Origin: Candidatus Brocadia sapporoensis
Lineage (GTDB): Bacteria; Planctomycetota; Brocadiia; Brocadiales; Brocadiaceae
DNA length: 44,395 nucleotides
Direction: 5' to 3'
NCBI RefSeq assembly: GCF_001753675.2
Contig: NZ_MJUW02000074.1
Location: forward strand, 1-44,395
Shown here: positions 4,836 through 44,395 of the stretch, in pieces
Position numbering within the stretch: position 1 is the first letter of the stretch
Layout of the letters: each line of letters starts with the position of its first letter
Notes under the pieces: model-generated
The model's database searches: none
What the model was told of the DNA's origin: nothing
Seen by the model: the letters and a program-made list of their open reading frames with translations, nothing else
Made by a program: the position numbers and the translations under genes

Positions 4836-5807
4836 ATGCGAACAAGGTATCTTCGTTCTAAGTATCTATTTTCATTATTAATCCTCTTTCTGCTAGTTTT
4901 CATAAAGTGTAGCGAGGCGAATCATGGTGCCGGAACCAGTGGGACAGCTATTACAATACCTGCCATCACTTTAAAAAGCGGCGTCTTTTCATTGGGTTTA
5001 CGAACAGAATTTACCGAGTTCGAAGGAATCTCTGATTCAAAATTACTTGAAAAAGCAGTAAAAGGCGGCTCCTTTGACGCCGTTGACAGGACGCTCTTAT
5101 CTACCATGGATGTTGGGTATGGAGTCACTGATGACCTGACCGTTGGACTTACCACAGGCTGGTTTGAATCGGCCAACTTCCGTGAATCCGAACTGGAAGA
5201 CGACGAAGTTAATATTTTTCATGCTAATCCCGATGGGCTTACTGATCTCTGGCTTTCGTGCAAGTACCGTTTCATGCGGGGGCCTCAGGGGCATTATGCT
5301 GTTTTGGCCGGCGTTAAATTTCCCACTGGCGTCGATGACAAAAAGAATAATGCAGGTGAAAAACTGGAGGCCGTAGAACAGCCGGGAAGTGGTTCTTATG
5401 ATTTTACAACTGCTTTTGCATATTCACGTTGGTTTACAAGAGATTGGACTATGGATACAAGTATCCAATACATTTATCGCACAGAAGGATCAGGAGATTT
5501 CAAAGTGGGCGATCGTATAGACTGGAGCCTTGCAACGACATATCAGGTCATCCCAAAAAATAAATATCCGAACTTTGCGCCTGTTGGAGAAATCAATACG
5601 AGATATCTTTTCCGGGACAAGCAAAACGGAAAAGACGAGCATAATAGTGGAGGCACCATCGTCTTCCTTTCGCCCGGAGTGCGTGCAGGGATTACCCCTC
5701 ATTTGGGGTTCGGTGCTTCGATTTTATTCCCCGTATTTCAAAACCTGCTTGGGGAACAGCAAGAGACAGATTTTAAGGTGGTTGCAGGTGTCAGTTATAG
5801 TTTTTAG
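4836..5807 (+). CDS. Outer-membrane transporter-like beta-barrel protein (MetA-pathway-of-phenol-degradation type)
   Basis: A 323-residue protein with a signal peptide (hydrophobic core about residues 11-24, cleavage probably near SEA-NHGAG). Alternating beta strands follow, ending in a C-terminal aromatic (VAGVSYSF), the usual outer-membrane barrel terminus. HGAGTSG, then TLKSGVFSLGLRTE, and YGVTDDLTVGL with LAGVKFPTG, fit the barrel family often labelled 'putative MetA-pathway of phenol degradation / transporter', frequently found beside metal-efflux genes. It sits between a cysteine-rich exported protein and a YHS lipoprotein, 14 bases before the latter. Substrate unknown; a porin-like role is the main alternative. 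Confidence 0.75.
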   Translation: MRTRYLRSKYLFSLLILFLLVFIKCSEANHGAGTSGTAITIPAITLKSGVFSLGLRTEFTEFEGISDSKLLEKAVKGGSFDAVDRTLLSTMDVGYGVTDDLTVGLTTGWFESANFRESELEDDEVNIFHANPDGLTDLWLSCKYRFMRGPQGHYAVLAGVKFPTGVDDKKNNAGEKLEAVEQPGSGSYDFTTAFAYSRWFTRDWTMDTSIQYIYRTEGSGDFKVGDRIDWSLATTYQVIPKNKYPNFAPVGEINTRYLFRDKQNGKDEHNSGGTIVFLSPGVRAGITPHLGFGASILFPVFQNLLGEQQETDFKVVAGVSYSF

Positions 5808-42639: not shown

Positions 42640-43496
42640 GAAAAATACTCCTCCAAATTCCCCTGCCTTTCCTCCAGAAAAGTATTCCTATTTATTCTTA
42701 TGGATTCATGCTGATGGTTGCCTTTCTCGTTGCTATCACGATTGCGCGCTGGAGGGCAAAAAAAGAGGGTATTGATCAAAATAAGATCGCCGATCTCGGA
42801 ATCTATCTCGTATGTGCGGGGATTTTGGGAGCACGGCTTTTCTTTATTATCCAGTACTACAAGGAATATAAATACAATTTTTTCGGTATCTTTAAAATCT
42901 ATGAGGGAGGCTTGGTTTATTATGGCGGTCTTTTTGCCGCCATCGTTACCCTGTTTGTATACACGAGAAAGCAGCACCTGCCTTTCCTTAAGGTCACGGA
43001 TATTCTTATACCATCAGCGGCACTGGGACTCGGTTTCGGTCGTATCGGATGTTTTCTGAATGGATGCTGCTTCGGAAAGGTGGCGGCTCATATCCCTTGG
43101 GCGGTTCAATTTCCAAAAACAGTGGATAAAACAGGTATGGTGGATGGCAGCCCTGCTTTCGTTCATCAGTATGAACTCGGATTGGTTTCCCTTTCTGATA
43201 GCCGTAGCCTCCCGGTTCATCCCACTCAGTTGTACTCATTTCTCGCAGATATGGCGCTTTTCTTCATCCTAAGTGTGTTTTTGAGGTACCGAAGAAAAGA
43301 TGGTGAAGTATTGCTTCTTTTCGGCATATTATATCCCGTTATAAGATTCTCTGTAGAATTGCTCCGGGATGATACGCCACTTTTTTTCGGGCTTTTTACC
43401 ATTGCACAAATTGTAAGTATCGGTGTGTTTGTTGTATCAGGAAGCCTTTTCGCAATCGGCAGATTGCAAAGCGCACGCAAGACAGTCAGAGAATAG
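42636..43496 (+). CDS. lgt: Prolipoprotein diacylglyceryl transferase
   Basis: Lgt adds diacylglycerol to the lipobox cysteine of prolipoproteins. The 286-residue protein has about seven membrane helices, YGGLFAA, the signature [14 protein letters not shown] (in place of the enterobacterial GRxGNFxN) and [12 protein letters not shown] near the C-terminus. Its presence fits the several lipoproteins in the window. It overlaps panD by 4 bases. Confidence 0.95.
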
Positions 43497-43558
43497 TCAG
43501 AAGACCAGGTTTTTTGGCAAGAGATTGTGGCTTTAACAAGGCATTTAATATCCGGCAG

Positions 43559-44115
43559 TTATAATAATATGTACGTCCTTTCTTGTGTTTTCTGTAAGGC
43601 ACCCTTAAAGTCAAGGTGTTCGATTGCGTGTAACGCTATAGAGTTTTCTGGCAACTTTTTTACGACAGTCTCATAACTGAGCCACCCCATCCCATAACCT
43701 TCTTGGTATACCAGTTCAATAACCTTACGAGGAATATCCATTCCAATGGTGGTGCCATAAACTTAGCCACGTCTGCACCTCAGTATTGTCGTGGATTTCT
43801 GTCACGGGCTTATTCCTCTGCGGTGTCCTTTTAATCTTACAAGCTGTTTAAGTTACCATCAGGTCATGAACCTTTAAACCTTTTTATGATTTACCGAGAG
43901 CTTCTCACGTCACACAAAAATGCTGTTATTCTTCGATATCATTAAAGAGGATGCGCAAGTTTCATTTCCTGGCTCTTCTTTAAAACCTCTGCGTCATTAA
44001 TCGTTTCCAGTACCATTGACAATTTCTCATCAGTAGCCCAGTTCCCTGCCAGGCATCACAAATGGTATTCCATAGTGAATCGTCCGGTTTTGCCCGTTCG
44101 TAGCGGCAACAATTA
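43559..44115 (-). pseudogene. Degenerate coding stretch, family not recognised
   Basis: Minus-strand fragments look coding but are broken. A piece reads DDSLWNTICDAW, and in a shifted frame DEKLSMVLETIND and KKSQEMKLAHPL, ending at a stop near 43951. Further down GADVAKFMAPPLEW appears near 43750-43790. Then an open 60-codon frame from 43741 contains QEGYGMGWLSYETVVKKLP and ALHAIEHLDFKGAL. Frameshifts and stops separate the parts. I do not know the family. The open 60-codon part might alternatively be a small gene. Confidence 0.3.
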
Positions 44116-44144
44116 AAAATACACTCAGCAGTTACGAAGGCATG

Positions 44145-44198
44145 TATATGTAAACGTATATTTACTTATTGACATATATGTAAACGTATGTATACTTA
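44145..44198 (+). promoter_or_regulatory. Strong sigma-70-type promoter embedded in two 30-bp-spaced direct repeats
   Basis: The block tatatgtaaacgtat occurs at 44145 and again at 44175, exactly 30 bases apart; each copy is followed by a reverse-related tttac/cttac, giving a partial dyad. A TTGACA (44169-44174) and TATACT (44191-44196) with a 16-base spacer overlap the second copy. The layout suggests a repressor or activator site overlapping the promoter of the gene starting at 44271. Confidence 0.6.
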
Positions 44199-44270
44199 CA
44201 AATAATTTTGCTTGGTCATTTAAGGAAATATCAAATATAACAATACAAAATTATTATAGGAGGGCGGAGA

Positions 44271-44395
44271 ATGAAGAAGGGGCACAGGCAGATAATGAGG
44301 TATGCAATAGTTCTTTTCAATGGTGTATTTCTGAGTGCTGCATTGTATGCAGCAGGGGAGACGGAGCCTGGTGTCAAGGGTGTGTCCGAGGAGGA
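44271..44395 (+). CDS. Exported protein, incomplete at the window edge
   Basis: The ATG at 44271 follows an excellent ribosome site (aggagggcggaga). The visible 41 residues start MKKGHRQIMRYAIVLFNG and contain a basic n-region, a hydrophobic core and a likely signal peptidase I site at ALYAAG, then an acidic/Gly stretch. The rest lies beyond the window, so the product cannot be named. It has a strong promoter with repeat operators upstream. Confidence 0.7.
   Translation, partial: MKKGHRQIMRYAIVLFNGVFLSAALYAAGETEPGVKGVSEE

Follow-up and report, generated by a model that had tools for sequence, protein, structure and literature searches.

Position 44,395 is both the last letter of the DNA analysed here and the end of a contig. 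Just before it stands a promoter-like sequence accompanied by two copies of a short repeat, and behind this a gene that is cut off. Which gene does the promoter serve, and is it controlled by a regulator that binds the repeat? The window, by which we mean the whole stretch of 44,395 nucleotides, comes from the Candidatus Brocadia sapporoensis assembly (G000; 2.93 Mb, 123 contigs), where it forms the end of contig C45.

Promoter and repeat at the end of the window

A repeat search found two 24-nt copies at 44145-44168 and 44175-44198, identical at 22 of 24 positions (92%) and 30 bp apart from start to start. In a promoter scan the hexamers TTGACA (44169-44174) and TATACT (44191-44196) were separated by a 16-nt spacer and agreed with the consensus at 11 of 12 positions. 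The features of the region, with conservation in the eleven promoters compared below, are as follows.

44145..44168, + strand: upstream repeat copy, putative auxiliary operator O2, with core GTAAACGTATATTTAC at 44150-44165 (repeat family D1; 11/12 to GTAWAC-N4-GTWTAC)
44169..44174, + strand: -35 hexamer TTGACA from the promoter scan (TTGACA in 10/11 second-nxr promoters, TTGAAA in 1/11)
44175..44198, + strand: second repeat copy, putative main operator O1, with core GTAAACGTATGTATAC at 44180-44195, in the spacer and overlapping the -10 hexamer (12/12; sole exact GTAWACNNNNGTWTACT match in G000)
44191..44196, + strand: -10 hexamer TATACT from the promoter scan (in 11/11 second-nxr promoters, O1 having been selected by TATACT)
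44203, + strand: expected transcription start, placed from the -10 position by the usual -10 to +1 distance
44258..44264, + strand: ribosome-binding site AGGAGGG, read by eye, with 6 nt between it and the ATG
44271..44395, + strand: first 41 codons of nxrC2, the gene for the gamma subunit of nitrite oxidoreductase (NXR), with a putative Sec-type signal peptide; the contig end truncates the gene (encoded residues 59% identical to the G007 protein; last 55 nt the same as the end of contig C87)

Promoter-like sites matching at least 9 of 12 positions numbered three in 43400-44395 against 2.2 expected, so that only the TTGACA-N16-TATACT promoter stands out. When 44080-44260 and 43500-44270 were each subjected to 2000 dinucleotide shuffles, no pair of 24-mers at most 60 bp apart reached 22/24 in shuffles of either stretch (maxima 19 and 20), and a plus-strand promoter of at least 11/12 was found in 1.0% and 1.15% of shuffles, respectively. 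The first-pass annotation, which had described a near-ideal promoter here, was therefore borne out, an 11/12 match being equalled in about 1% of shuffles.

The core of the repeat is a 16-bp palindrome, GTAWAC-N4-GTWTAC, to which 44150-44165 scores 11/12 and 44180-44195 scores 12/12, and the repeat unit is better described as this palindrome than as a 24-nt copy. The promoter had also been described as wrapped in two copies of the motif. Two copies are indeed present, but one lies within the promoter and does not flank it, and this position points to repression. A little further upstream, 44048-44135 has counterparts of 74-76% identity in G001, G008 and G010, of which that in G001 is without clear coding content.

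Identity of the cut-off gene and evidence for a second nxr copy

The gene had been taken to encode an exported protein cut off by the end of the window, and this proved right: the reading frame from the ATG at 44271 runs off the end, its N-terminus resembles a Sec signal peptide when read by eye, and it matches NxrC. The 41 residues in the window are 59% identical to a full-length relative of the same genus (G007, 324 aa), which matches PDB 7b04_C (nitrite oxidoreductase subunit C) at 7.4e-143 and carries an EB_dh domain (PF09459, 112.8 bits). The cut-off gene is thus nxrC.

A copy of the same gene was found at the end of contig C87 (L003:1-55), which is identical to 44341-44395 of the window over 55 nt; there it comes after the cytochrome/USP cluster that belongs to the canonical nxr locus, and its promoter is unrelated to that of the window. 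The genome also holds two nxrA genes, one complete on C101 and one on C62 from residue 254 onwards, with 84% DNA identity over 2693 bp, and the 5' end of C62 shares a second 55-nt identical run with C101. The equal length of these overlaps suggests k-mer breaks at a collapsed repeat. Consistent with such a repeat, ortholog-grade nxrB, which directly follows nxrC in the canonical copies of relatives, was not found in the G000 assembly (best match 46%). The contig would then end at the window's end because the two nxr operons share sequence, and the G007 and G010 contigs likewise break inside or just past nxrC. Where near-identical repeats collapse at contig ends, second nxr operons may drop out of metagenome-assembled genomes (MAGs), and they are probably under-reported there.

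Canonical loci of relatives have the order nxrC-nxrB-TorD-like-unknown-nxrA, where TorD is the label we presume for the gene after nxrB. In 12 relatives nxrA is followed, as on C101, by what we take to be a cupredoxin-like gene, and in four of these also by a gene we take to be ispG. Second nxr loci have a small protein, X146, in place of the cupredoxin-like gene, and X146 is also found on C62. By this gene order (synteny only) C87-C101 would be the canonical locus and C45-C62 the second, and we infer that nxrC2 on C45 continues into nxrA2 on C62 rather than into nxrA on C101. This pairing is contradicted by G010, where on C6 the canonical upstream genes are linked to an nxrA accompanied by X146, and the nxrA with the cupredoxin gene is on C3; the opposite joining may be an assembly chimera or a genuine recombination.

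In six relatives (G002, G003, G005, G008, G023 and G025) the second-locus stretch examined contained nxrA2 with no nxrC or nxrB match, and an nxrC remnant is present at the second locus of G002. Second loci L186, L187, L188, L191 and L192 hold nxrA2 and X146 with no nxrC, nxrB or TorD-like match in the stretch examined, distant repeats aside, and the nxrA2 genes there are apparently orphan catalytic subunits under a putative TetR-type operator. The G025 nxrA2 (L192, 12671-16119) is interrupted by stops. The loci with nxrA2 lacking nxrC and nxrB, together with this interrupted copy, indicate that the second operon decays in places.

Conservation of the site in second-nxr promoters

Eleven second-nxr promoters were compared (G000, G002, G003, G005, G007, G008, G010, G023, G024, G025 and G029); the G024 contig ends after the promoter and its gene was read across from G023 and G025. 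The O1 palindrome was present in the -35/-10 spacer of all eleven, at 12/12 in nine and at 11/12 in G003 and G005, and in every case it overlaps the core promoter elements (spacer and -10). Six of the promoters have a spacer of 16 and five a spacer of 17, and 10 of the 16 O1 core columns are invariant. In the 400 bp upstream of canonical nxrC in 11 same-genus genomes the palindrome scored at most 9/12. The earlier prediction of a promoter with two regulator sites is supported by this comparison, the spacer site being found in 11/11 second-nxr promoters and in 0/11 canonical nxrC upstream regions; an exception, in a genome other than those 11, is the canonical-type nxrC of G011 (with cupredoxin), which has an 11/12 site 235 bp upstream. 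A lack of conservation in relatives had been set beforehand as grounds for giving up the claim; the motif is conserved and the claim stands. Judged by sequence comparison, the promoter is real, conserved and operator-bearing.

G002 (L107, C1:3092000-3106000) has a second promoter of this type at 5734-5765 on the - strand, preceded by a GTATAC element. It lies downstream of nxrA2 and X146, and a Na/H exchanger gene follows after about 450 bp.

The O2 site of the window (11/12) lies upstream of the -35 hexamer at a pitch of 30 and is centred near -45. Upstream candidates at the other second-nxr promoters scored 11/12 at 34 bp in G029, 10/12 at 34 bp in G023, G024 and G025, 9/12 at 33 bp in G003, 8/12 at 33 bp in G005, 9/12 at 30 bp in G010 and 9/12 at 31 bp in G007; G010 has an additional 10/12 site 21 bp downstream. 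The second-nxr promoters of G002 and G008 had no other site above 8/12. At other genes, pairs were found at 33-34 bp (G001, G011, G025, G028 and G035) and at 57-59 bp (G005, G007, G008, G009, G010, G023, G024 and G025). The 30-bp pitch to which the first-pass annotation had drawn attention is therefore exact in the window but not conserved, clear pairs elsewhere being 33-34 or 57-59 bp apart; two operators about three turns apart recur, and exactly 30 bp is not a rule.

Genomic distribution of the site

Exact matches to GTAWACNNNNGTWTACT were sought in 33 genomes of the family with the reversed pattern as control, and palindromic double matches were merged. The scan gave 45 matches against 34 control matches, and 34 distinct sites after merging. 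The search of G000 for further copies of the motif, which had been proposed as a check, found the exact site only at 44180, against one forward and one reverse control match, so that the motif is not enriched there by count; similarly, the 20-nt repeat pattern, allowed 3 mismatches at most, gave 6 matches against 11 control matches. An earlier pattern with a 17-bp promoter spacer gave 0 matches in G000, which it missed because the spacer there is 16, and was replaced by the scan without hexamers.

Counting alone was uninformative, and it was the placement of the sites that was informative. For 23 of the 34 exact sites a TetR ortholog or nxr gene is no more than 12.5 kb away, and the 72 loci used amount to at most 1.6% of the DNA (binomial P ~1e-33, or 2e-32 at 1.8% of the DNA when nine initially omitted nxrA loci are added; these P values overstate independence because the genomes are related). 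The other 11 are away from the listed tetR and nxr genes, three of them in G030 and G032, which lack the TetR ortholog. They include a site on C102 of G024, which is the nxr2 promoter at a contig end, one before an antiporter-type gene in G028 and one before a histidine kinase in G005. The G005 palindrome (L244, 2777) is part of a 17-mer found also in G010:C4 and G003:C496, and the kinase is a possible further target.

In various genomes sites precede genes for a NarK-like transporter (best model TIGR00886, below its cut-off at 225.9 of 311.7), P-II, a CPA2-type antiporter, X146, tetR and nxrA2/nxrC2, several of these target genes being matched by their first residues only. In a further candidate target the encoded protein contains a Cache-like stretch (43.7 of 45), and genes for a PAS-like protein (24.6 of 27) and NarK come next; in G023, G024 and G025 an FNT gene has an 11/12 site some 400-470 bp upstream. 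Neither narK locus of G000 had a site of at least 10/12, and at the narK locus of B. pituitae (G002) no site was found near narK. The distribution of the motif, next to genes for nitrate and nitrite transport and to a single family of repressor gene, suggests a putative dedicated control circuit.

A TetR-family gene as candidate regulator

On C62 of G000 a TetR-family gene follows nxrA2. Its product has a TetR_N helix-turn-helix (PF00440, 49.2 bits against a cut-off of 24) and a C-terminal domain of the TetR_C_4 type (PF08359, 29.3 bits against 21), with PF17932 just below its cut-off (26.2 of 26.4). AcrR was the best PDB match, followed by SlmA, a fatty acid metabolism regulator and TtgR. The protein falls in no named subfamily, all 20 NCBIfam models listed being below cut-off (best SlmA, 70.7 of 120).

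An ortholog at E <= 1e-12 was found in 26 of 33 family genomes, in G038 only by a 24%-identical match, which leaves seven TetR-less genomes, among them G026, G030 and G032. A tree of 34 rows split into two clades; the C62 protein belongs to a clade of 20, in 11 of which a narK-like gene lies within the fetched stretch. TetR genes lie within about 12 kb of the second-nxr loci of G003, G005, G010, G023, G025 and G029, and no TetR gene was found in the second-nxr stretch examined in G002, G007 and G008.

Exact sites stand about 60-100 bp upstream of tetR in G027, G029 (C54), G031, G037 and G040, and 11/12 sites at most 160 bp upstream in G035 and G039. When the 300 bp upstream of 20 TetR loci were scored, a site of 10/12 or better was present at 4 and absent from 16; the tetR gene of G000 has at most 8/12 in that interval. 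G027 and G037, which belong to different genera (L195, L196), have identical TetR proteins and the same operator sequence, likely through contamination of one bin, and since the proteins are identical they are best counted once.

Neither of the two complete nxr operons of TetR-less G032 has a site of 11/12 or better in its stretch, though this genome has two exact sites elsewhere, one of them 17 kb from nxrA. In TetR-less G026, with two nxrA genes, no exact site was found; the contigs with nxrA start after nxrB and do not include the promoters.

Proposed control of the second nxr operon and alternatives

We consider it probable that the window carries the operator-controlled promoter of the second NXR operon, from nxrC2 onwards, under a TetR-type repressor that answers to a nitrate or nitrite signal. 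A TetR/AcrR-family dimer would most likely bind GTAAAC-N4-GTATAC between the -35 and -10 hexamers (O1) and so block RNA polymerase, and a second dimer on O2, about three helical turns away and centred near -45, would strengthen repression. The repressor would come off in response to some signal tied to the supply of nitrate or nitrite. Binding by TetR, repression, the role of O2 and the signal are deduced here from sequence. The best reading of the data places the second NXR operon under such a repressor within a nitrate/nitrite regulon. A wider proposal, which we put forward tentatively and hold to be possible rather than probable, is that the Brocadiaceae TetR regulator senses nitrate or nitrite and switches on the alternative NXR (or NxrA2) together with NarK-like, FNT, P-II, sensor-like and antiporter genes as one regulon, with canonical NXR1 left without the operator.

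The palindrome could also be the real operator of a regulon but be bound by a different protein, the TetR gene being a mere neighbour or itself a target. We regard this as unlikely, although it deserves more weight than the other alternatives. It would account for the missing site before tetR in G000 and at the 16 of 20 scored TetR loci, and for the exact sites in TetR-less G030 and G032; sites before the Cache-like, PAS-like and P-II proteins also mean that other regulators are around. Against it, TetR genes are the common neighbour of the sites in several genera, sites of 11-12/12 stand directly upstream of seven TetR genes (six if G027 and G037 count once), and both nxr operons of TetR-less G032 are without sites. 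A 16-bp palindrome with two 6-bp half-sites, moreover, fits TetR-family operators. A LacI- or MerR-type site was considered and dropped, given half-sites 4 bp apart and a promoter spacer of 16-17; MerR promoters have spacers of 19-20.

It seems to us improbable that the near-consensus promoter is simply strong and constitutive, no regulator being involved and the repeat having been left behind when promoter DNA was duplicated locally. The -10 hexamer and part of the spacer do lie inside the repeat unit, the motif count in G000 is no higher than the control and the pitch of 30 is not strictly conserved in relatives, all of which speaks for this reading. Yet five spacer positions of O1 (columns 1-3, 6 and 11) never vary across the 11/11 promoters, although a plain promoter could do without them, and other genes carry the palindrome too, in pairs spaced 33-34 and 57-59 bp. 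We give least credence of all to an activator acting from O2, with O1 secondary. Near -45 is a usual activator position, and the upstream copy reaches 10-11/12 in G000, G023, G024, G025 and G029, but it is O1 that is universal (11/11) and covers the spacer and -10, the upstream site falls to 8-9/12 in G003, G005, G007 and G010 with none above 8/12 in G002 and G008, and near-consensus hexamers need no activator.

Significance and comparison with known systems

Much of the dinitrogen that water and sediment lose is made by anammox bacteria, whose reducing power is believed to come from NXR. The site supplies a concrete putative binding sequence, a candidate regulator and a list of targets, all open to test in vitro and in metatranscriptomes already available. 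If the regulon reading is true, NXR of anammox bacteria would gain a first assigned regulator, and this would point to a conditional role of NXR2, for example in nitrate reduction instead of nitrite oxidation.

Among the open-licence papers searched, we found none describing a transcription regulator of NXR in anammox bacteria. PMC7438415 reports Kuenenia nxrB and nxrC to be up under nitrite limitation, and CRP/FNR regulators are treated in PMC8510549.

The window gene is an NxrC relative, and the closest known locus is the nxr cluster of Kuenenia stuttgartiensis (kustd1699-1713, PDB 7b04). Unlike that cluster, the second copy lies outside the cytochrome cluster, has its own promoter and is linked to X146 and tetR. 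In its proposed control it resembles the TetR/AcrR repressor-operator systems (AcrR, TtgR and Bacillus-type FadR), having a linked regulator with PF00440 and TetR_C_4 domains and a palindromic site over the promoter; SlmA is a TetR-family relative with another role. It differs from AcrR, TtgR and FadR in that binding is predicted and the candidate targets are nitrate/nitrite handling genes and an energy-metabolism oxidoreductase, not efflux or lipid genes. A TetR-type operator is a known kind of system; the regulon and the control of a second NXR look new.
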